Source: an uncultured Pseudomonadales bacterium (lineage in GTDB: Bacteria; Pseudomonadota; Gammaproteobacteria; Pseudomonadales; Porticoccaceae). From it: a stretch of 64,000 nt of DNA. The stretch spans positions 62,001 to 126,000 of the forward strand of contig CALSSA010000006.1 of NCBI GenBank assembly GCA_943788875.1. The letters run 5' to 3'. How positions within the stretch are numbered: position 1 is the stretch's first letter; every line of letters begins with the position of its first letter. The position numbers were made by a program, and so were the translations under genes. This document shows positions 6,373 through 31,767 of the stretch, piece after piece. Below the pieces are notes generated by a model. It was not told where the DNA came from, searched no databases, and saw only the letters and a list, made by a program, of their open reading frames with translations.

Positions 6373-7079
6373 CCAATGTTAATCCCAAGATGCTTTATGG
6401 CCAGATGTTTGATGAAGGCGATCTGGACCCAGAATTTAGCCGCCGTATGGATGGTTATAAAAACGGCTCCGGCACCTTCCGCATGAATGTAGCGCTGTCA
6501 GAGCTGCCAGACTTTACCGCCCTGCCCGGCAAAGACAGCGCGGAACATCACCAGTGCGGCATTGTGATTGCTCCAACACTGGATTATATGGATCGTGCAT
6601 ATGTAGACGCCAAAGCCAATGGCTGGTCCAAACATCCCATCGTGGAAATGTTAATTCCCTCGACATTGGATGATTCTTTGGCTCCCGCCGGTCAGCATGT
6701 AGCTTCATTATTCTGTCAGCAGTTCTCACCAGAACTGCCCGACGGCCAATCCTGGCACGATGCCCGTGAAGCTGCTGCGGAAACTATTATTGATACAGTG
6801 ACCGCCCATGCCCCTAACTTTAGAAATGCGGTGGTAGGCAAAATGATCCTGTCACCTCTAGATCTGGAAGAAAAACTGGGTTTGATTGGCGGCGATATTA
6901 TGCACGGTGTAATGACCTTAGATCAGATGTGGGCCGCTCGCCCGCTAATGAACCATGGCGATTATCGCGGTCCCTTAAAAGGCCTGTATATGTGCGGTGC
7001 TGGCAGCCATCCCGGCGGCGGCGTTACCGGTTTGCCTGGGCGCAATGCGGCCCGCGAAATACTGGCCGACGGCAAATAA
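6373..7079 (+). pseudogene. Duplicated 3' half of the FAD oxidoreductase
   Basis: A second copy of the last ~235 codons of the oxidoreductase, starting at NVNPKMLYGQMF and ending with the same ...REILADGK stop. It has no own promoter or 5' end. An ATG at 6330 inside the duplicated spacer could open the frame but is not homologous. Against 5529-6236 there are only about five amino-acid differences (for example FNEG to FDEG, EFARR to EFSRR, APEG to APAG, FRDA to FRNA), yet many third-position nucleotide changes. The flanking 109-bp spacer copies are identical. Mostly synonymous divergence in the coding part beside an identical spacer is not what a simple recent tandem duplication gives. It suggests the two halves derive from two strains. 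Confidence 0.9.
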
Positions 7080-7101
7080 AATGTTTAGCACTGGCGGCGC
7101 T

Positions 7102-21916: not shown

Positions 21917-22003
21917 GCCAGTGTGATGGAATTGGTAGACATAGGGGATTCAAAATCCCCCGCCCTTAAAAGCGTGCCGGTTCGAGTCCGGCCACTGGTA
22001 CCA
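21917..22003 (+). tRNA. tRNA-Leu (anticodon CAA)
   Basis: A long-variable-arm tRNA of 87 nt with encoded CCA. Acceptor arm GCCAGTG pairs with CACTGGT (first pair G-U). The anticodon stem GGGGA/TCCCC encloses loop TTCAAAA, so the anticodon is CAA, reading UUG. The long variable arm (GCCCTTAAAAGCGT region) and T-loop GGTTCGAGTCC confirm a class II leucine tRNA. Its 3' end is the integration site of the mobile element that follows. Confidence 0.96.
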
Positions 22004-22004
22004 A
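21982..22004 (+). repeat. attL: 23-bp tRNA 3'-end repeat
   Basis: Starts TCGAGTCCGGCC and ends GGTACCAA. It is identical over 23 bp to 29174-29196 and marks the left boundary of the integrated element inside the T-arm/acceptor end of tRNA-Leu. Confidence 0.93.
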
Positions 22005-22015
22005 GCATACTTTGA

Positions 22016-22050
22016 AGCCCTTGTAAGCACTAGACTACAGGGGCTTTTTA
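22016..22050 (+). terminator. Intrinsic terminator after tRNA-Leu (element-borne)
   Basis: A 10-bp stem AGCCCTTGTA/TACAGGGGCT (one G-U pair) around a 10-nt loop, followed by TTTTTA. It lies just inside the left end of the element and replaces the tRNA's original terminator. Confidence 0.8.
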
Positions 22051-22063
22051 GTTCTTAAGCTAG

Positions 22064-22089
22064 TCATTTGTAGTCACATTTGTAGTCAC
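22064..22089 (+). repeat. 26-bp arm-type repeat, left copy
   Basis: Contains two tandem ATTTGTAGTCAC units. It is identical to 29091-29116 and in the same orientation. It begins 60 bp inside attL. Probable binding site for the integrase N-terminal domain. Confidence 0.75.
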
Positions 22090-22287
22090 GCAGGGGCTTC
22101 TTTATACCCCACGGGGGAGTCTGCTGAGTCCTTGTGATTGTTACTGTATCTCGCACAGATACAAAGTAGGCAAATTCTAGACTCCTCAACTCGTACAACA
22201 TCCCTCCAAAATCACAGACTGTCTACTCAAAAACTTTCATCAGTTTTGATTGTCATAAACGCTGACACCATGACTGTAAGTTTTACA

Positions 22288-22620
22288 ATGAAAAAACACC
22301 TCTTTGCTCTAATGCTTGTCAGCCCAGTCACGTTTGCAGAAATTGACCAAATATGCCCAATCTACGTCAAGACCTATGGGTGGGACATAGTTGCAAAGCA
22401 AATTAAGAGAAATGGTTGTAGCCGAAATGACATACTGCAAATCTTCTATGGGATGGACAAACCCATCAAGGAGATGATGCTGATCGCGTCTAATAGATGG
22501 TGTCGATTCGATAGAAATACTGACATTGTGGGGATATCGCTAAGCTGCGTACTAAATTCAACAAAACCACGAATTCGCTTGGATTCTGCTAAGCGTAGAA
22601 ATATGCCAACGCAGTCTTGA
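22288..22620 (+). CDS. Small secreted hypothetical protein (element cargo)
   Basis: A 110-residue protein starting at ATG 22288 with a clear signal peptide (MKKHLFALMLVSPVTFA). An upstream extension to a TTG at 22138 would place the signal internally and is not accepted. The mature part holds several Cys residues (QICPIYV, NGCSRNDI, RWCRFDR, LSCVLN), suggesting disulfides in the periplasm. No family is recognised. The Shine-Dalgarno is weak. It lies at the left end of the tRNA-Leu element, about 70 bp before the Sel1 gene. Confidence 0.55.
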   Translation: MKKHLFALMLVSPVTFAEIDQICPIYVKTYGWDIVAKQIKRNGCSRNDILQIFYGMDKPIKEMMLIASNRWCRFDRNTDIVGISLSCVLNSTKPRIRLDSAKRRNMPTQS

Positions 22621-22691
22621 TTATCTATTCACTATTGCACAAACGTGCCTGTGCTATATAGTTGTAAAATAAATTAAAGGACTTATAGCTA

Positions 22692-22991
22692 ATGAGATAC
22701 CTCCTACTACTTGTAGCTTTAATTACTTCTAATGCTTTTGCTGCGCCAAACTTTGAAGAAACTATGGCAGCAGCTAAGCAGGGTGATGCAGATGCTCAAT
22801 CGCGTATGGGGTATGCTTATGCCGTGGGAGACGGTGTTCTGCAGGATCAATCCAAAGCTCTAAAATGGTTTAAAAAAGCAGCCTACCAAGGACAGTGCCA
22901 GTGCGATAGTTCCGTAGAATTTCATGATTTTTATCTCTCTGCTTACCGAGTAAAACATTTAATAATCGAGGCAAAGCTAGTTATACCCTAA
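22692..22991 (+). CDS. Truncated Sel1-repeat secreted protein
   Basis: A 99-residue reading with signal peptide MRYLLLLVALITSNAFA and one good Sel1-like (TPR-like) repeat, AAKQGDADAQSRMGYAYAVGDGV..ALKWFKKAAYQG. Right after that the protein departs from the repeat pattern (QCQCDSS). Dropping the single G at 22895 would give YQGHASA, the expected start of the next repeat, but then a stop follows within a few codons. The gene is therefore probably a decayed remnant of a longer Sel1 protein. AAAGGA provides a ribosome-binding site and a strong terminator follows at 23001. Sel1 proteins mediate protein-protein contacts, and no role can be assigned here. Confidence 0.65.
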   Translation: MRYLLLLVALITSNAFAAPNFEETMAAAKQGDADAQSRMGYAYAVGDGVLQDQSKALKWFKKAAYQGQCQCDSSVEFHDFYLSAYRVKHLIIEAKLVIP

Positions 22992-23000
22992 AAGTAAAAA

Positions 23001-23025
23001 AACCCAGCCGGGCTGGGTTCTTTTA
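23001..23025 (+). terminator. Intrinsic terminator
   Basis: AACCCAGC-CGG-GCTGGGTT stem-loop followed by CTTTT, 10 bp after the Sel1 stop. The A-run before it lets it act weakly on the other strand too, where the 628-aa lipoprotein gene ends at 23088. Confidence 0.85.
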
Positions 23026-23087
23026 CTCTGACAATGCCTACGTGAACGGAGTAATAACCCCATTCACACACTTAGCCTCAACTATAA

Positions 23088-24974
23088 CTATTCTGCCGCC
23101 AAAAAGTCATCATAGGGAAATGCTGGCATACCGGTCTGTTCAAAAACAAAGTCAACAAGGACTCTAGAAGCGAAAATCGAGTAATCAACACTGCCATTGA
23201 AGGGCAGAGAAACCTTGGTCCCCGAGGAGTAAAAACGACCACCAAAGATACCAATGTCCCCTAGGGTATTTTTAGCCTTACCAAACATTATAAAGCTTGC
23301 CATTTCGCCAGGATTGTTTGCTCTAAGCAGCCGCGGTGTTGGGGTCTTAATTATTTCTTCATTGCCAACAGTGACAATAGAAAACTCCGATTCTTCAATG
23401 ACCGCATTTTCCTCCCAACCCCAATTTGAGTTGCACCCGCCATCACGAGATGTCCATTCAAATATTCCAGTTTTCGCGTCAGCATCGTAGCTTTTTACGC
23501 GAAAGGGAGAGTTACAGCCTTCTCCCATGGAAGAGTGGTTAAGAGGAGCTTGGTGATACGCTATGAAGCCAGAAAGCGTTGTTTCATAGGCATCGTCACA
23601 GACGTACCCGCACCAGCTGTCAAACCATAATTCGTAATACCCACCAAGATCATTGTCGACAGCTGAGTACACGGTGTCATAAGCATACGAGCCTTCGGGC
23701 GCAGGTAGCTCAGGATTGCACCCTGGAACGGGAATATCATCATCGCCGTCCGAGCATAAATCCGGGATAACATCTCCGATACGCAGCCCTGAAAGATCTT
23801 TGCGAATGAAACAGTATTCTCTCGAGGCAGTAATCCCGTCATCGTAAAACGTGGCACAGTTTTCAACGAGTTTTGTGCCCGCACCTTCATTTTCGCTAGC
23901 AAGACTCCAAACACCCTCTGGCCCTAAAAAGTAATCCTCTCCGAGTTCAATCGAAACCCAACGACCTACCTCTTCGTCGTACGGATGGAACGCTACCTTG
24001 TCAGCACTTCCAGAGGTAATGTCCACGATCTTACCTTCCTCTGCCTCTGGGAAGTACACAAACTCCATCATCAGCCCTTCTACATAGTCCCCGCCCTCAA
24101 CAATTCGCTCTTCCTCCTCGGATAAGATTATCAACTCCCCCGATTTGATTACGTCGACTAGACTAACAACCTCACCATCTCCAGATTTCGTGGCGGCTAC
24201 AATGTTTTGCACCTGGCCTTCAACACGCTGCGTAACTGCATCCGTCACCTCTTCCAGGGTCAGTGCCGCTTGCCCGCCAACAATCAGTTCTGCTGCGATC
24301 ACATTTTTGACGGTAGCGATGGCTGCCTTCGTCACCTCTGCTGCACTCAAAGTGGACGCCCCTTCGCTGCTCTCCAATGTCGCCTTTGTGGCGGCTAAAG
24401 CTTCAGCCAAAACCTCGGCAGTATCCTGCAAATCTTCATCCACCACTGAAATGAAGTCGTTACCCAGTAGATCGGTATCCGAATCAATTCCCAATGCCAG
24501 TTTTACAGAGAGTTCCGCCTGTTCAGCGGTTATCTCTCCGCCCGAGGAAACAATTTCCTGTGAAACAAGCGTTGTCAAAGGGGTAACAACCTCAGGATTA
24601 TCATGAGGAGCCATCATGTTGTAGGCTTTCTGAATAGGACCAAGGTCCTGATCCGTGGCAGTGATAGGGATATCAGCGAGAATTTGCGTGCCAGCGGGGA
24701 TATCCCCGGTAACTTCAAATGTATAAGCACCATCTACTCCTGACACGGCAGAGGGCTCCGTGACATCACAAGCGTAGTTGTTGTTGAGGTCAAGACATAC
24801 TGTCGCACCTACAATGTAGCCGTCAATGACCGCTCCTGCCATCGTAACTGCATTGGTGGCTGTAGATCCACCAGCCGGCGCTCCCCCAGCAGTTTCGCCA
24901 CCACCGCCTCCGCCACATCCAGTCAAACTGACCAGCAGTGCTGCGCTATAAAAAAAAGTTTGTTTTAATCTCAT
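23088..24974 (-). CDS. Large lipoprotein of unknown function (element cargo)
   Basis: A 628-residue lipoprotein: signal MRLKQTFFYSAALLVSLTGC followed by a Gly run and a Gly/Ala/Ser/Thr linker. A repeat-like module at about residues 45-140 (GAVIDGYIVGATVCLDLNNNYACD..DGAYTFEV) resembles the carboxypeptidase-regulatory/prealbumin-like beta-sandwich of surface proteins. Then comes an Ala-rich helical stretch (about 140-260: AEQAELSVKLALG, AEVLAEALAATKATLES). A Cys-containing acidic C-terminal half (FYDDGITASREYCFIRKDL, WFDSWCGYVCDDAYETT) matches nothing I recognise. CGGAG precedes the ATG at 24974. It is the largest cargo gene of the tRNA-Leu element and presumably sits on the outer membrane surface. 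Confidence 0.8.
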   Translation of the reverse strand: MRLKQTFFYSAALLVSLTGCGGGGGGETAGGAPAGGSTATNAVTMAGAVIDGYIVGATVCLDLNNNYACDVTEPSAVSGVDGAYTFEVTGDIPAGTQILADIPITATDQDLGPIQKAYNMMAPHDNPEVVTPLTTLVSQEIVSSGGEITAEQAELSVKLALGIDSDTDLLGNDFISVVDEDLQDTAEVLAEALAATKATLESSEGASTLSAAEVTKAAIATVKNVIAAELIVGGQAALTLEEVTDAVTQRVEGQVQNIVAATKSGDGEVVSLVDVIKSGELIILSEEEERIVEGGDYVEGLMMEFVYFPEAEEGKIVDITSGSADKVAFHPYDEEVGRWVSIELGEDYFLGPEGVWSLASENEGAGTKLVENCATFYDDGITASREYCFIRKDLSGLRIGDVIPDLCSDGDDDIPVPGCNPELPAPEGSYAYDTVYSAVDNDLGGYYELWFDSWCGYVCDDAYETTLSGFIAYHQAPLNHSSMGEGCNSPFRVKSYDADAKTGIFEWTSRDGGCNSNWGWEENAVIEESEFSIVTVGNEEIIKTPTPRLLRANNPGEMASFIMFGKAKNTLGDIGIFGGRFYSSGTKVSLPFNGSVDYSIFASRVLVDFVFEQTGMPAFPYDDFLAAE

Positions 24975-25695
24975 GCCAATGCTCCGAAGGTTGATGAAAA
25001 AAAAAGTGTAGTATGTAAACGTGCATATTACAATTTATTTCCCTCTAGCCCCCGTATCGTGCCCACCAGTTAATCGAAATACACTAAACGAGCCTGACGA
25101 GATATGAGTTCCCGTCACACCGATGTGGGCAACCAAATTTAAGAATAGATAACTGCAGGGTACTCCCCTCGACCGATCCCTGAAAGAGATCAGGCTGTGG
25201 ATATTGCGATCAATAGTAGCTCTTTGCCGCGTTAAAAAATATCTGCATGGGCTAAAGAAACTGTTGGAGCGCGGATGGGACAAGCATTGGGTCAAATGTG
25301 ATTAAAGTAGATAACCCAGAAAGCTAAAACATGGGCTTGGGTTATTTGCTCTGTACAGTAGCTCAAGCTCTAGCAGCCCAATGCTACGAGTCTAATTACA
25401 AAGACTGTGATTGATATTTTCTTTACAGGACACAAAGAAAAAGTAGCTTGCCAAGTCTCTAGCACTACTTCCTTAGCCCAGTTCTGATGTTGCTGTTGCA
25501 CAGCTATGACATCGTGTGCTGATGGGTATTCTAATTAAGTACTGGTAATGTAAGAGGTGCTAGTTCAGCCTTCACACCTTTAGCGGCTATAGCATACAAC
25601 TACTACTAGCCATTAGCAGCTAGCCCCGCAGGGTTCCTATACAGTCCCTAGTTCCTTTCTATTGTGTATAGTCTCTAAGCACTAAAGAGAGACCA
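24975..25695. other. Non-coding stretch in the element
   Basis: 721 bp without a convincing gene. An 86-codon minus-strand open frame (25035-25295) has no signal, no ribosome-binding site and no recognisable composition. I see no strong hairpin, array or repeat here. It may be remnant sequence of the decaying element plus the lipoprotein promoter. Confidence 0.5.
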
Positions 25696-27192
25696 TTAAT
25701 TATTAACCTTTAACAACCACTTATTATGTTGTTTCAATCTGTTGTTATAGCCTTCAGTTCTGTTGTAAGTGACTCTTTGGTTGTGGTTGTAGTCTAAAGC
25801 ATTGGCTCTATCCATGTTCATAAAGGCTTGTATTTGATCTCTTCCAATACCTTCTTGATCTAGATTGATTTTGAATCCATTGAGTTCTTCTGTTACCGCT
25901 TTGTTCATTATGGTTCTTAACTCTCCAGAGTGTATGTCTGGGATTACGTAAGAATCATGTATTGTTAATACTGGAATGTTTTTCTTGGTAAAGTGGTTAA
26001 TAATCTTCGTTGTGATCCTACCATCTACATTCATTAACTCTACACCCTTATCTGTTCCTAGCGAGTCTCCCAGTGTTGGATGTTTTTCTTTGAACGCATC
26101 TAGCAGGAGGTGTAGTTGTTTGTGTTTTAGCTTTCTTTCTTTACTCTTACTAGGCTGATCTACTTGATAAGCTTGAAAAGCTTTTTTAACTGTTGCAGCA
26201 TTAATAGCATTTAGGACTATCCCTTTAACAACTTTCCTTTGTTCCCCTGCTGTAAAATCTAAGAGTAGGTGTTCCAATGCATAGTGGTCTTCCAGCGGTG
26301 GTTGTATCCCTTGTAAACCATAAAGTAAGTTTACGTGTAGCCCTGAGTAGTCTACCTCTATCGTTGTCTCGTCATTGATATATATCTGCTTACGCCAATC
26401 TTCCTTAATACTCTGCCACCATCCTCCGTGAAACCTACCTCCAAGATTCCAATCAGCCCTGTAGAAGACTCTTCTGACAAACTTGTTGTCCTGTGTCAGT
26501 TTTACTCTCCTAATCTTTTCCTTTCCCGCTTTCTTGTCCCAGTAGGGTTGCTCTATAACTGGCTCTTCTCTTGTTGGTATGTCTATAAAGGTTCGCCAGA
26601 GCAAGGCGTTGTATTGCTGTACCTGCTGTCTCATTGACTACTATTGGTTCAAAGTCTGTGTCTTCGTAGTCAACCTGAATACGTTTCTTCTTGTCGTTGA
26701 TGTAGTCATAGTTACTTAGGATAATCACTTCTTGGTTAGGCTGTTCTTCTACAAGGTCAAACAATGTTAGATTAGTATTATTAAAGATTCTTACCAGCTT
26801 GGCTGAAGCTCTAATGCGTGTAGTCATACCTGACCACTCAGAGCCAGTCTCTTTATCTATTAAACCTGTTTCGTAGGCTCTGTTGACTATTTCAATCATC
26901 TTGGCTGAGATGAATAACTCGTTGTATCTGGAGTTCTTTTTGTAGGCTGAGTTAGTCATGCCCACGCCAATAGATAACTCTGGATCGTCTAACCAAGCTA
27001 CATAGAGGTCTAGTAGCAGTGTTTTGAATTGCTTCTTGGGTTCTGACTTGGCTTTGTTGCCTTTGCCCCCTCTGGAAATGCTTCTTTAAAGTATTGATTC
27101 CAGACAGTGTCACGTAGCTTTGTTGCTTCAGGATGGTGTGACCATCGGTGAACGTCTAGTGGTCTGGAGTGGTAACGGTTGATTTCAGTCAT
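25696..27192 (-). pseudogene. Family-A/T7-like polymerase-palm protein, frameshifted
   Basis: One gene in three frames, about 495 codons. N-terminal piece from ATG 27192 (MTEINRYHSRPLDVHRWSHH); middle piece continues as KKQFKTLLLDLYVAWLDDPELS after a slip in a G5 run near 27068; C-terminal piece begins MRQQVQQYNALLWRTF at 26634 after a second break near 26636. The C-terminal 312 residues show a conserved RFHGGWWQSI block and then three motifs spaced as in DNA polymerase I/T7 RNA polymerase palms: EVDYSGLHVNLLYG (motif A, Asp), RKVVKGIVLNAINA (motif B-like helix with Arg/Lys) and VLTIHDSYVI (motif C, HDS). I recall similar uncharacterised proteins in integrative elements. A replication or priming role is inferred. 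Composition is AT-richer than the flanking chromosome. Confidence 0.6.
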
Positions 27193-27640
27193 AGAGCTAT
27201 TGAAGCACAGGATTTGATCAGTTTATATCTGGGATGTCGTTGGTTTGGATATAATTTAGCCATCGAATAAAGGTCACTTTCAATCTCGCTTAAAACGCAA
27301 CACAGAGCCTCTCAGCGCCATCCTCAGCGCACCCTATACGAACCGAAAGCCCAGCAATATCGTGGCTTGCAGGGCGATCTGAGGTGTTCTGTGGCGTGCT
27401 ATGGCGCAGGGTTTGTTGGGGAGGCTGAGGAGTGGATAAATAGGGTGATTTAGTACCTGTGTAGACGCTCTCTCTTGCTGTTTTAGGCATGGCAGAAAAA
27501 AAGATTCAGACCGAAATGAACTTTCCATCACATAGCTGTCTTAGTAAGCGTGAATGATTCTCCCCCTAGAACACGATCAGTTACATCTCTCCGAAGAAGC
27601 CCTGTTAACGCAGGGTTTTCTTTTGTCTGAGCATTTCAAT
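27193..27640. other. Intergenic region with a hairpin between integrase and polymerase-like gene
   Basis: No gene is supported here; two short overlapping minus-strand frames (27290-27531) are Pro/Ser/Thr-rich and have no ribosome-binding site. A hairpin CCCTG-TTAACG-CAGGG flanked by AA/TTTT lies at 27597-27624, just beyond the integrase stop. It is nearly symmetric, so it could terminate in either direction. The remainder should hold the promoter of the polymerase-like gene. Confidence 0.5.
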
Positions 27641-29094
27641 CTAGGAGCGACTGTTGATGCTGACTACGTTGCTAGCGAGACCATACTCAATATCAATAAG
27701 GTGCTGGTGAATCTTCAGTGAGTCTTGATAAAGAGTCTGAACAATCTCTGACTGAGAGATAGCAGTAGAGCCGTAATTTAACAGGTGTCTGCTAGCCTTC
27801 CTTTGCTCATCTGACCAGCCAGCAATGGATGCTATTGTCAGCAAAGACACTCCTGCACGCTGCCCATTGATCTTAAAGCTATGCCGCAGGCAGTGAGGTG
27901 AGGTTTGCGGACTGTCGATAGTCCTGCGCATGATCTTCTTTAAGGTGGCACTTGGCGCTGACTCTGTGCAGCCTTGCAGCCACTTAATCGTGTCTTCAAT
28001 ATTGTTTCTGATAAGTTCTAGGCCCAGCACTATTGGAACGATACGTTTCCTATCGTCAGTCTTTGTATCATTCACAATCTTCAGATGAGGAATGTCAGCA
28101 TCTAAAGCAATATCCTCTGGCCTTAATCTTTTAATCTCTGACACCATCATTCCAGCCTGTAGATACAGCAACAGAGTCACACCATACATTGGCTTAATTT
28201 TACCTGCAGGGTCTAGGATTGCTCTCACTAACTCTATTTGCTGCTGAGGCTCTAGAGGGTTTCTTGCGTTGACTGGAGTAGGCTTAATCTCAGGCAGTTC
28301 TATTTGCCATCCTAAACGGTGCTTTCGGCTAGCCTTGCGCAGACACGCTGTCACATCTCCTAACTCTCTGATCAACGTCTGACTGCTCACCTGCCCTTCC
28401 CTATCAAGCACATACGCATCCATACCATCGTTTATGTGCTGAAGCGTAGCTCCACTAATTACCGTGTCGCCTGCCAAACTGATCCATCTATTCCAGTATT
28501 TAAAGGCTTTCTTGCCATTGCGGGACTCAGGATCAATACCTCTGTAATGAACATACTCATCCCAGAGGCTGCCTAGCGTCTTTGGCTTGGCTTTAGCTTT
28601 ATTGACCAGCTTCATACGCGCCTCAGCCACTATCTTATCCTGTAAGGTCAGCGGCTGGCCTGTCTGGTCTTTGTGCAACACATCTTCGAACTCAGGAACT
28701 GCCCAATCAGCATAGTCATGTCCATCAGCTTGCAGCTGTCTTTGCTCCTGCTCTTCCTTGACTGATATATCAGCGTCTTTTAGCTACCTTTACATACTGA
28801 CCTGCCACTAAGCCACGCTTCCTTAGGAAATCTGCAGCTGCTTTCTCCAAGTCTGTTGCAGAAAGTGCGTCTGGGTCAGAGTTACTGATTAATAGAAGCT
28901 GACGCTGATATGCCTCTTCAGCCGTTAATCGCTGCTTTCTGAATCTCTATTACACTAGCGCTGGCAACCTGTAGCTGCAGCGGATATGTGAAGAGACTTT
29001 GCTGTATTAGATGCTTTAGCCTAGTTGGATAGCGTCTTTGATAATGGTACGAACCACGTCTAGGTCTAATGTATTTAGGGAGTGAGATACTCAT
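27641..29094 (-). pseudogene. Tyrosine recombinase/integrase, two frameshifts and a lost catalytic Arg
   Basis: The integrase starts at ATG 29094 (MSISLPKYIRPRRGSYHYQRR, a typical arm-binding N-terminus) inside the right 26-bp repeat. The frame breaks near 28947: inserting two bases (GAGATTC to GAGAGATTC) gives SVIERFRKQRLTAEEAYQ. It breaks again at the A4 run at 28778-28781, where removing one A gives VAKDADISVKEEQ. The remainder to 27641 is open. The catalytic domain has SPHCLRHSF (HxLRH) and a C-terminal HLLNYGS with the candidate Tyr nucleophile. The first catalytic Arg, normally in a TGMRxxEI context, reads AGMMVSEI, one nucleotide change from Arg (AGG to ATG). The enzyme should be inactive. 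Confidence 0.87.
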
Positions 29095-29116
29095 TTGTAG
29101 TCACATTTGTAGTCAC
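29091..29116 (+). repeat. 26-bp arm-type repeat, right copy
   Basis: Identical to 22064-22089, two tandem ATTTGTAGTCAC units, ending 57 bp before attR. It overlaps the integrase start codon, so integrase binding here could also repress its own gene. Confidence 0.75.
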
Positions 29117-29173
29117 ATATGATTCCCATTGTAACATTAAATGCATATATAACAACAACTTAGATAGCATAGG

Positions 29174-29196
29174 TCGAGTCCGGCCACTGGTACCAA
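29174..29196 (+). repeat. attR: 23-bp tRNA 3'-end repeat
   Basis: Second copy of the tRNA-Leu 3' end, identical to 21982-22004, marking the right boundary of the integrated element. The preceding base differs (G versus T), so identity ends exactly there. Confidence 0.93.
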
Positions 29197-29265: not shown

Positions 29266-31602
29266 TTAATACCCGTTTTCTTGTAATTCCTGATAAAGAG
29301 TCGCACTTCGAGTCTCGATGAACTCTTTGACAGACACATCGCTAGCATCACAGAGATCAGTCCCTGCCGCAGCATCGATAGCACCCGGGTTATAAACCTG
29401 ACCGCAGCCACTGGGGGAACCGGCATCGGTAGCCAATATAGATGGTTGCACTAGGGCATTTCGCGTTGCTAGTTTTTGTTCTACGGCAACCCAATTTAAT
29501 TCAAGGTCCAAAATTGACTTAATTTCTAAAAATAGTTGGTTTTTATTTTCTGGTTCCGAGAACACTATTGTCCATAAAATGGGGTTGAGCCCAAGCGCTG
29601 ATGCCCTCCCCGCCCAATCAATCTTATCGGGCGAAGGAAAGGCATAAGTTTCCATAATATCTCTAAATCCCGCAAAATTTGCGTCTAACTCACTGCTACC
29701 TAGCCTGTGACTATCCCTGAAGACAAAATCGAAGTCATTAACAAAGTACGTCCATAGATCAGTTGTAGGGTTAAAATAGAGGTAGTAATTATTTCCAACC
29801 CTTACATAGTGGTCTACGGCGCCCATAACGATCTCTGCCGCCTGCGCCTTAATAAATCCATTTATGTCGAAGTGTTCAGCCAACGCTGATTCAGAGGGAT
29901 TGGACTGTAAGAATTCAATAAAATCCTGCAAAAGCTGTCGACCCTCGGTAATACTTTTCTTTTTAGTTTTAAGGTCGTAAATAGGTCTATACGGGCGAAA
30001 TTGAGAGACTCCTCCTTCATTATTGATATTTGAATTTACAAATGCTGGATCTAGATAATTAGCCGTACCCAACCATTCTTCTCTCGAGTCCGGGTCCGAT
30101 TTCTCAACACCGATATTACAAAAGTCAGTGTTGAAAAACTGATCAGATGTATCGTAAGGCACACAGTTTAGGTCTGCCTCCTTAGGCCCTGCCAACGTTG
30201 CAAAAACGCCGCTTTTGAACAGAAAGCCGTTTTTCCCAAAAAAACGTTTTAAAAAAGGTTTGTCGATTTGTTCAACCATTTGGAACACGCCCATATTATA
30301 TGTTTGGGGTAACGGCTGCCCAAACAAATTCCCAGTGCCTGTTATCTCCAAAATGACATTAGCATGAGCAACACGAGACGCTGGCACCCCGATACTGTTA
30401 AGGACATCGTGGGCTAAAAGCTCTCTCTGATAAGTAGGATCGTCCCGGTTGTATCTGAAGAATACCTTCTCGACACCCATAAATTCCCTACCATCATTGC
30501 CTGGAACCTCTGGATGATTTTTACCTAACCGACTTAGACATGGATATTCAACAACAGAGGCGGGATCCCCGCTGCCATCGATGCATGAATACACACCCTC
30601 GTCTTCATCAAATTCCTCATCAAATTTGAGCCCGAAGCTGAACCGTTTTGGCTTAATGAGCCCGGTATCTGCATCATATTCTTCCGGCCATTGGCGGCTA
30701 GTATTACCTCGCATTTTGAAACCAACCTTTTCCAGACTCTCAATAACGTTATTGTTCTCGTCAAGATATTCGAAATCAACCTGCCGGTATATTTCGCTGT
30801 GGCTCCAATTCGTCCAAAGAGCTGCCGGACCACTAGCCGTACCATTTCTATAGTCAGCCCTTTCTGTGTCTAACACAAAGCGCTGCCACTCACCTCCATC
30901 CATGGTTAGCCGAATTTTATGCATTTTATCCAAGGAGAAAAGTGGCGCTGAGTCATCTGCCTTACACTCAAGATCAATCACCAGATCATTGAATGCTATC
31001 GCGCCCTCTTCAATCGACAACTCGCAATCTTGTCGCCCCGCATCTCGATCAACACTCACCTCAAAGTTACTGCCACCCTTAATACCGAGCGGTATTTTAA
31101 AGACACCATTGCCATCAATGGTCACAATCTCATCGTCAATAGCACAATCCGAATCATTGCTCGTCATGAAGCAGCTATTAATCTCTAGGTCTAAGTCGCG
31201 AAACTCATCAAGTGTGGAGATCTCAAATTCAAGAAAGAAGATTGGCTTTGTGACGGTGAGATCAAAATCTATCGAACGTGAAAACTCTCCATCTGACACA
31301 GACAATGTTATTGAAGACACTGAGTTTAGATCAGCCGTCGAAGGAATACCTGTAATGGACCCAGTTATTGAATCAAAACTCATCCAATCAGACTGGCCCC
31401 TAATAGAAAAACTCAAGGAGTCACCATTTACATCCGAGGCATCAGGTGTAAAATTCAAAGATTCTCCTATTCGTATTGATGACATGGAACCTGATATTTC
31501 TGGCGCTACATTAACGAGTTGAGAACCCCCCGTGCTATCGCCACCACAACTGGCCAGAAGTACAGCCCCAATAACCAACGCCACATTATTTCTTGTCACC
31601 AT
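29266..31602 (-). CDS. CotH-kinase-like lipoprotein with cadherin-like domain
   Basis: A 778-residue surface lipoprotein. The start is set at ATG 31602 (MVTRNNVALVIGAVLLASC), which has a strong AGGGGAGG and gives a proper lipobox; a 15-codon upstream extension is rejected. Residues about 30-120 form a putative Ig/cadherin-like domain (NVAPEISGSMSSIRIGES..LSFSIRGQSDWMSFD..GIP). After a spacer comes a CotH region with HKIRLTMDGGEWQRF, VGFKMRGNTSRQWP, a FFRYNRDDPTYQRELLAHDVL helix, GVFQMVEQIDKPFLKRFFG and WTYFVNDFDFVFRDS. CotH proteins are atypical protein kinases, first known from spore coats and common in marine bacteria on exported proteins. The target is unknown. It lies just outside the tRNA-Leu element. 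Confidence 0.86.
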   Translation of the reverse strand: MVTRNNVALVIGAVLLASCGGDSTGGSQLVNVAPEISGSMSSIRIGESLNFTPDASDVNGDSLSFSIRGQSDWMSFDSITGSITGIPSTADLNSVSSITLSVSDGEFSRSIDFDLTVTKPIFFLEFEISTLDEFRDLDLEINSCFMTSNDSDCAIDDEIVTIDGNGVFKIPLGIKGGSNFEVSVDRDAGRQDCELSIEEGAIAFNDLVIDLECKADDSAPLFSLDKMHKIRLTMDGGEWQRFVLDTERADYRNGTASGPAALWTNWSHSEIYRQVDFEYLDENNNVIESLEKVGFKMRGNTSRQWPEEYDADTGLIKPKRFSFGLKFDEEFDEDEGVYSCIDGSGDPASVVEYPCLSRLGKNHPEVPGNDGREFMGVEKVFFRYNRDDPTYQRELLAHDVLNSIGVPASRVAHANVILEITGTGNLFGQPLPQTYNMGVFQMVEQIDKPFLKRFFGKNGFLFKSGVFATLAGPKEADLNCVPYDTSDQFFNTDFCNIGVEKSDPDSREEWLGTANYLDPAFVNSNINNEGGVSQFRPYRPIYDLKTKKKSITEGRQLLQDFIEFLQSNPSESALAEHFDINGFIKAQAAEIVMGAVDHYVRVGNNYYLYFNPTTDLWTYFVNDFDFVFRDSHRLGSSELDANFAGFRDIMETYAFPSPDKIDWAGRASALGLNPILWTIVFSEPENKNQLFLEIKSILDLELNWVAVEQKLATRNALVQPSILATDAGSPSGCGQVYNPGAIDAAAGTDLCDASDVSVKEFIETRSATLYQELQENGY

Positions 31603-31767
31603 GCTGACCTCCCCTAAAAATTGCGTGTTCGCATAAAAAAGATACATTACATGAGAATTAACTTCAATTATCGGAGCTCATTTTTCATATTTGTAAGTCA
31701 AAAAAAAGCCGGGTACTCTCTGAGAAGGGTTATTACAACCCTCTGACAACAGATTTTGCATTTGAAT

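Follow-up and report, generated by a model that had tools for sequence, protein, structure and literature searches.

The minimal A-superfamily polymerases of mobile elements were named TV-Pols in 2008 by Iyer, Abhiman and Aravind (PMC2579912). These proteins of 400–600 residues have no known domain. They carry an absolutely conserved Arg in the hairpin before the palm, the two Asp residues of the active site, an RxxxK motif, a conserved Asp in the fingers and a two-helix thumb module, and some of them have a further domain at the N-terminus. Their genes neighbour those of a gamma-delta-resolvase or a lambda-type integrase and occur in Paracoccus denitrificans, Rhodobacterales and a marine gammaproteobacterium, among other hosts. 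They are often paired with a helicase, linkage to a D5-like helicase being found in a subset, and were predicted to have primase and polymerase activity (PMC2579912). CcPol of SCCmec, also classed as a TV-Pol, synthesises DNA primers together with MP, its partner protein (PMC7581432), and in the accessible literature this distant relative is the only one for which we found the 2008 prediction tested. Two other kinds of system come close. RNAP2 (gp16) of phage N4 and T7 RNA polymerase have a GR motif, which in N4 sits on the partner protein gp15, together with motifs A, B and C and an HD in motif C (PMC4496689). The PICMI phage satellites are integrated islands of small size, each of which has an integrase and a single replication gene of the primase type (PMC10803314).

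The window, the whole stretch of 64,000 nucleotides of DNA that was analysed, contains on the minus strand at 25696–27192 three ORFs whose matches follow one another along the 508-column profile of the polymerase relatives. The N-terminal piece (60 aa, 27010–27192, minus) matches columns 29–73 (E = 2e-13), the middle piece, in another frame (26510–26965, minus), matches columns 98–197 (E = 2.1e-23) and the open polymerase core of 312 aa (25696–26634, minus) matches columns 202–488 (E = 3.8e-108). Read from stop to stop, the frame at 26513–27085 (minus) covers columns 62–197 (E = 5.3e-38). Since the three ORFs match successive parts of the same profile, they represent one polymerase gene broken by frame changes. 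The 312-aa ORF holds GGRFHGGWWQ, EVDYSGLH, RKVVKGIVLNAINA and VLTIHDS, that is, a GR hairpin, motif A, an R-x3-K-x7-N motif and the HD of motif C, in that order, so that all of the polymerase motifs quoted in the first-pass annotation of this DNA are present. That annotation was also right that the protein lacks a usual annotation: a Pfam and NCBIfam scan of the three pieces gave no match reaching its cut-off, the best being CARF_Card1 on the middle piece (19.7 bits against the 24.6 needed), and the best match in a PDB sequence search with the window protein was not significant (E 0.13). A phage family of unassigned function, phrog_4756, does match the 312-aa ORF (E = 1.3e-37).

The residues expected to form the active site are conserved to a high degree among 102 relatives, a set that includes near-copies and from which the window's own short ORF was left out. 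All of their codons lie on the minus strand. The Arg of the GR hairpin (residue 67, 26434–26436), the Asp of motif A (residue 95, 26350–26352) and the Lys of motif B (residue 137, 26224–26226) are kept in 102/102; the Arg of motif B (residue 133, 26236–26238) is kept in 101/102, as is the Asp of motif C (residue 227, 25954–25956), where the remaining relative has a gap, and the His-Asp pair of motif C is likewise kept in 101/102. An Asp in the fingers, Asp116, is invariant in 16 family members and at least 90% conserved in 63. The relatives are 24–41% identical to the window protein (62 aligned) and are under purifying selection, with dN/dS values of 0.06–0.33 in 20 of 25 close pairs and saturation of dS in the other five. 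The phrog_4756 match, the residues kept in 101–102 of 102 relatives and the low dN/dS together show that the motif set of the window gene is not there by chance.

Two positions of the active site set the family apart. In Pol I the residue five places after the motif A Asp is the steric-gate Glu. A gapless stretch of the A-family alignment described below places His100 (26335–26337) at this position, and the His is found in 94/102 relatives. In motif B, both Pol I and T7 RNA polymerase carry a Tyr where the family has an Asn (residue 145, 26200–26202; Asn in 97 and Gly in 5 of 102 relatives). With these two substitutions the protein fits neither the standard form of DNA polymerase I nor that of a T7-type RNA polymerase. 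It differs from DNA polymerase I also in the exonuclease domain, which Pol I has and for which Pfam scans of the window pieces and of 16 family members gave no match, as the first-pass annotation had noted. The scan of those 16 members gave a single weak match of endonuclease/RT type in one of them (E 0.045) and no other nuclease.

From these features, rather than from a direct sequence match to a published member, the window gene appears to encode a TV-Pol. The family described here and the published TV-Pols share the size of 400–600 aa, the hairpin Arg, the two Asp residues, the RxxxK motif, the fingers Asp and the lack of a nuclease. They also have in common the added N-terminal domain of some members, the integrase or resolvase neighbours and the host taxa. 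The main text of PMC2579912 mentions neither the tRNA-bounded layout seen here nor the occurrence in many large phages. A profile search of the whole record of Ma-LMM01, a phage named in that paper, gave no match at E ≤ 1. When 65 kb of this 162-kb phage record were examined, gp030 scored highest of 31 ORFs by a small margin (27.4 against 26.7 for the second), and it alone among them had the signature D-x4-[HQ], K-x7-N, HD. This signature marks 91/102 relatives and, of 945 ORFs of at least 250 aa in the loci and the window, 119, one of which is not a relative by profile. We infer that gp030 may be the TV-Pol meant in PMC2579912. CcPol–MP of SCCmec shares with the family an A-family core without exonuclease, an integrative island and a proposed role as a replication module. 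In contrast to the family, CcPol is annotated as PolA and has no counterpart of the N-terminal domain found in many TV-Pols; its working partners, MP and a helicase, were not recognised in the elements here (PMC7581432; PMC10061031).

A comparison of profiles bears on whether the motifs reflect a polymerase fold. In hhalign the family profile scored 31.7 over 165 columns against a broad A-family profile of 26 sequences, aligning in order a Gln-Asn after the hairpin, motif A, the R-K helix and the HD of motif C. The background was given by 42 unrelated families, built by clustering ORFs from the neighbourhood that are in part doubtful; the highest score among these families was 23.9. The scores were 40.3 for N4 RNAP2 and 35.4 for N4 RNAP2 plus T7 RNA polymerase. 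When columns were shuffled, 0/60 shuffles reached the observed score with either the A-family or the N4 RNAP2 profile (with 51 of the 102 rows). On an absolute scale hhalign gives low probabilities, 5% for the A-family set, 42% for N4 RNAP2 and 11% for N4 plus T7 RNA polymerase, and of the narrow profiles only N4 RNAP2 stood out, the others lying at background (T7 RNA polymerase 23.0, T7 DNA polymerase 21.2, PolA 21.1); the GR of the family aligned with that of Pol I only in this narrow PolA comparison. The known related pair of T7 RNA polymerase and the A-family polymerases (PMC2579912) scored 26.3 in the same test and aligned in the wrong region. Single-sequence hhalign against N4 RNAP2, T7 RNA polymerase and T7 DNA polymerase gave nothing useful.

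A catalytically dead or non-polymerase protein, having A-family motifs by resemblance only, would fit the low hhalign probabilities and the lack of both a Pfam match above cut-off and a significant PDB match. We regard it as most improbable: both Asp residues, the Arg and the R-K pair persist in relatives that have diverged to 24–41% identity with the window protein, these relatives are under purifying selection, and the motifs align in order with those of Pol I. A compact family-A/T7-like polymerase carried on a tRNA-targeted element, which is what the first-pass annotation had proposed, is well supported as a prediction from sequence.

The profile scores also raise the question of which kind of polymerase this is. 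The top match is that to N4 RNAP2, and with narrow profiles in hmmsearch (102 relatives, E < 1, forward against reversed sequences) N4 RNAP2 gave 18/3 matches, T7 RNA polymerase 0/1, PolA 0/1 and T7 DNA polymerase 2/1. The phage RNA polymerase family phrog_2051 was matched by 9/62 relatives at E ≤ 0.1 (best E 8e-4); phrog_414 was matched by 4/62 and phrog_2573, which also matches this genome's own PolA, by 3/62. The copy in phage KASIA matches PF00940 (E = 0.0024). These matches are further hints of a polymerase, and those to RNA polymerases fall around motif C only. The protein might instead be a minimal RNA polymerase, DNA-dependent as N4 RNAP2 is, that transcribes the genes of the element or phage itself. 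This would account for the top match, to N4 RNAP2, for a motif C that reads HDS as in T7 RNA polymerase, and for the presence of the gene in many phages. It would also suit the Leu found in the family at K+4 of motif B, where Pol I has a Phe. The N-terminal part, too, weakly resembles transcription regulators, which made up 9/10 of its PDB matches in one search (E 0.03 to 1.8, several being one protein) and 8/9 in a second (E 0.04 to 1.7); none of these matches is significant alone, and we take the regulators to be winged-helix proteins.

Several details of the sequence nevertheless speak against an RNA polymerase. The match to N4 RNAP2 spans 78 columns around motif C. GR and motif A lie 28 residues apart, a compact spacing typical of Pol I and unlike that of T7 RNA polymerase, which is less compact than the family proteins. 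Motif A reads D-x-S-G-L-H, to be compared with D-A-S-G-L-E in T7 DNA polymerase, and has a His at the +5 position; the Tyr of motif B in T7-like RNA polymerases and N4 RNAP2 is replaced by Asn in 97/102 relatives, and KASIA already has a T7-type RNA polymerase. We therefore consider the transcription function rather unlikely, and rank it, like the defence function discussed below, lower than a role in replication.

The region around the gene is a decayed integrative element in the tRNA-Leu gene of a relative of the SAR92 clade within the Gammaproteobacteria. The tRNA-Leu (CAA) gene, the target of integration, was located by ARAGORN at 21917–22003 (plus). Its last 22 bases and the base that follows (21982–22004, plus) form the first copy of a direct repeat (att) that recurs as an exact 23-bp match at 29174–29196 (plus), the far end of the element. 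By simple arithmetic, even a 15-bp repeat of this kind is expected by chance in fewer than 1/1000 loci. The second copy is followed by a GC-rich hairpin and a run of T, which read like a tRNA terminator. The repeat bears out the earlier suggestion of a tRNA-targeted element, and places its bounds, for which no position had been given, at about 21982 to 29196, a length of 7.2 kb. Just outside the right repeat, window positions 29266–31647 encode a CotH-kinase domain (PF08757, E 1e-21); the CotH family was first known from spore coats.

Besides the polymerase gene, the element carries a tyrosine integrase (27641–28681, minus; PF00589, 1.6e-7) and two cargo ORFs. One of these (23088–24974, minus), of unknown family, lies between the att copies and is lipoprotein-like to judge from how its start reads (best Pfam E 0.66); the other (22138–22620, plus) is of unknown function (best Pfam E 0.024, below the cut-off). 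The integrase has a Met in place of the first catalytic Arg. Of 40 aligned integrases, one of which is present twice (L044/L057), 36 have Arg at this position and only that of the window has Met; its other catalytic residues look intact. The window integrase has probably lost its activity, and together with the broken polymerase gene this makes the element look like a relic. The tRNA-Leu (CAA) gene lies beside queA/tgt in seven of eight relatives examined, and a search of the stretches from these eight with the window proteins, for an empty site with both flanks, matched only queA and tgt.

A tRNA-bounded layout like that in the window was found in 30/102 loci, with lengths of 2.4–14 kb. The targets are 11 tRNA types (Leu, Gln, Met, Phe, Asn, Ser, Arg, Glu, Gly, Val and Cys) plus tmRNA, and an integrase match of at least 50 bits lies inside 29 of the 30; several are near-copies (L126/L128/L129 and L003/L082), so these are not 30 independent events. 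PICMI satellites, in contrast, are tied to fis and have AlpA and a primase of the DUF3987/DUF5906 type (PMC10803314). A tyrosine integrase is present within 7 kb in 71/107 loci, and in 52 of the 60 loci that have long flanks on both sides, leaving eight of the latter without. With a serine recombinase near 13/107 loci, either type is found in 74/107. The first-pass annotation had called for a survey of homologues beside tyrosine integrases, and in 20 genomes, namely the window's own and 19 of the other 31 with a phrog_4756 match, the best copy has an integrase (PF00589) within 7 kb in 13 against about 0.6 expected, a figure worked out by hand from integrase densities. When any copy is counted the number is 15/20.

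The rest of the cargo is mixed and includes methyltransferases, HNH proteins, serine recombinases, a subtilase, a KAP ATPase and others. In a scan of 69 of the 92 cargo proteins that reach 170 aa, no conserved third gene was seen beyond the serine recombinases (7/69) and HNH proteins (5/69). The methyltransferases, the KAP ATPase and other defence-like genes are among the reasons to consider that the polymerase may itself be cargo that serves defence, acting as a polymerase-like effector to block other phages or elements. Its distribution is patchy, as might be expected of such a gene: phrog_4756 matches 32/390 genomes of the order, its own genome included, and 25/398 of the phylum, with 0/14 controls in each case. 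A role in defence has also been suggested for PolA-SSB primases by the authors of PMC10061031. The polymerase gene, however, recurs with many integrases and targets while the other cargo changes, an association that is partly selection because the loci were chosen by this gene, and it is also present in phages. On balance a defence effector seems unlikely. The first-pass annotation had described the system as a little-described one for replication or defence, which is half right: TV-Pols have had a name since 2008 and CcPol is described as priming with MP (PMC7581432), and the defence half has no direct support.

The reading that we prefer, and consider probable, is that the window holds a decayed tRNA-Leu element with a tyrosine integrase and a TV-Pol which, in intact relatives, primes or copies the excised element. 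The integrase and the TV-Pol would form the core of the element, the latter as a member of the Pol I/T7 RNA polymerase superfamily that lacks an exonuclease and has an additional N-terminal domain. Excision by the integrase would, in intact relatives, release the element as a circle, on which the TV-Pol would then start DNA synthesis, either as a primase-polymerase acting de novo or at a nick or transcript. The excised element would thereby be copied, or an incoming single strand would be made double before re-integration. The analysis shows the gene, its family and conserved catalytic set, the tRNA-bounded element and the pairing with an integrase; we infer polymerase activity, priming and the role in replication, and from the gene content also excision and copying.

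Some observations sit less easily with this reading. The Pfam families listed for the cargo, 25 of 64 from a scan of 69 of the 92 proteins of at least 170 aa, include no helicase, D5-like or other; the published TV-Pols, in contrast, often occur with one, a subset being linked to a D5-like helicase. An iteron-like origin is not a consistent feature: there are three repeat clusters in the 30 elements and none in the window. That in L069, of three copies of a 10-mer, is about 300 bp before the polymerase gene, and the other two are elsewhere. Finally, 36/107 loci have no tyrosine integrase within 7 kb.

Relatives of the polymerase occur in phages, plasmids and bacterial genomes. A tblastn search (E ≤ 0.01) found them in 152 phage records, which include near-copies, all with less than 60% identity; the hosts are Rheinheimera (112), Vibrio (20), Aeromonas (14) and others (6). 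Among plasmids, 3/72,556 records have relatives at the same threshold. A degenerate-pattern scan of genome contigs gave 202 relatives, the best 80 of which are, by their titles, mostly from Rhodobacterales together with a SAR116 set. In the tree the window copy forms a group (support 98) together with two relatives, one from the same order and one from the same family, the latter being the SAR92-clade member LSUCC0057. All nine phage copies included in the tree are placed together in a group of 12 rows, whose support of 90 is below the 95 mark.

The four carrier phages examined all have a DNA polymerase of their own, recognised by PF00476 in three (in one of these below the cut-off, the protein being annotated DNA polymerase I) and by annotation in the fourth, Barba9A. 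KASIA, besides its DNA polymerase, has an RNA polymerase of the T7 type. It follows that the family gene is not the sole replicase in these phages and must do something extra there. In all nine phage records opened (L002, L005, L006, L007 and L365–L369) the gene is annotated as hypothetical, and its presence in many large phages is one reason for its interest. In the open-licence literature we found no description of the tRNA-bounded class or of the phage copies, a negative that is weak because it is limited to open-licence papers.

The window copy is a broken member of a known family, and the intact small elements and the phage copies are more interesting. Many intact, small, tRNA-bounded elements exist in marine bacteria, some of them cultured, and would suit a test of the primase-polymerase prediction; the family could reveal by what means the smallest integrative elements are copied. 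A more speculative and rather unlikely extension is that the TV-Pols described here define a broad class of small tRNA-targeted cargo elements in proteobacteria needing only an integrase and this one polymerase, with an active site (His and Asn) tuned for a primer-free start without a helicase or SSB partner, and that large phages may use the gene or be exploited as helpers of satellites.

Some smaller features of individual loci were also seen. The serine recombinase that recurs near 13 of the loci is a small one (for example L058:4457-5038), and a small serine recombinase has been described near the integrases of marine picocyanobacterial islands (PMC10187409). The polymerase ORF at L054:9478-10494, from the same order as the window, begins with a match to the N-terminal part of integrases (domain E 1.6e-11), and one family member matches DUF6538; this is a fusion or recombination scar. 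Plasmid pBEN of Paracoccus versutus has a second, split copy of the polymerase (L003:5938-6393 and 6467-7090) about 4 kb from the longer one. In LSUCC0057 (G135 contig C6, 272365-310716) there are three family matches within 40 kb, one with an internal stop, suggesting repeated insertion in one region.
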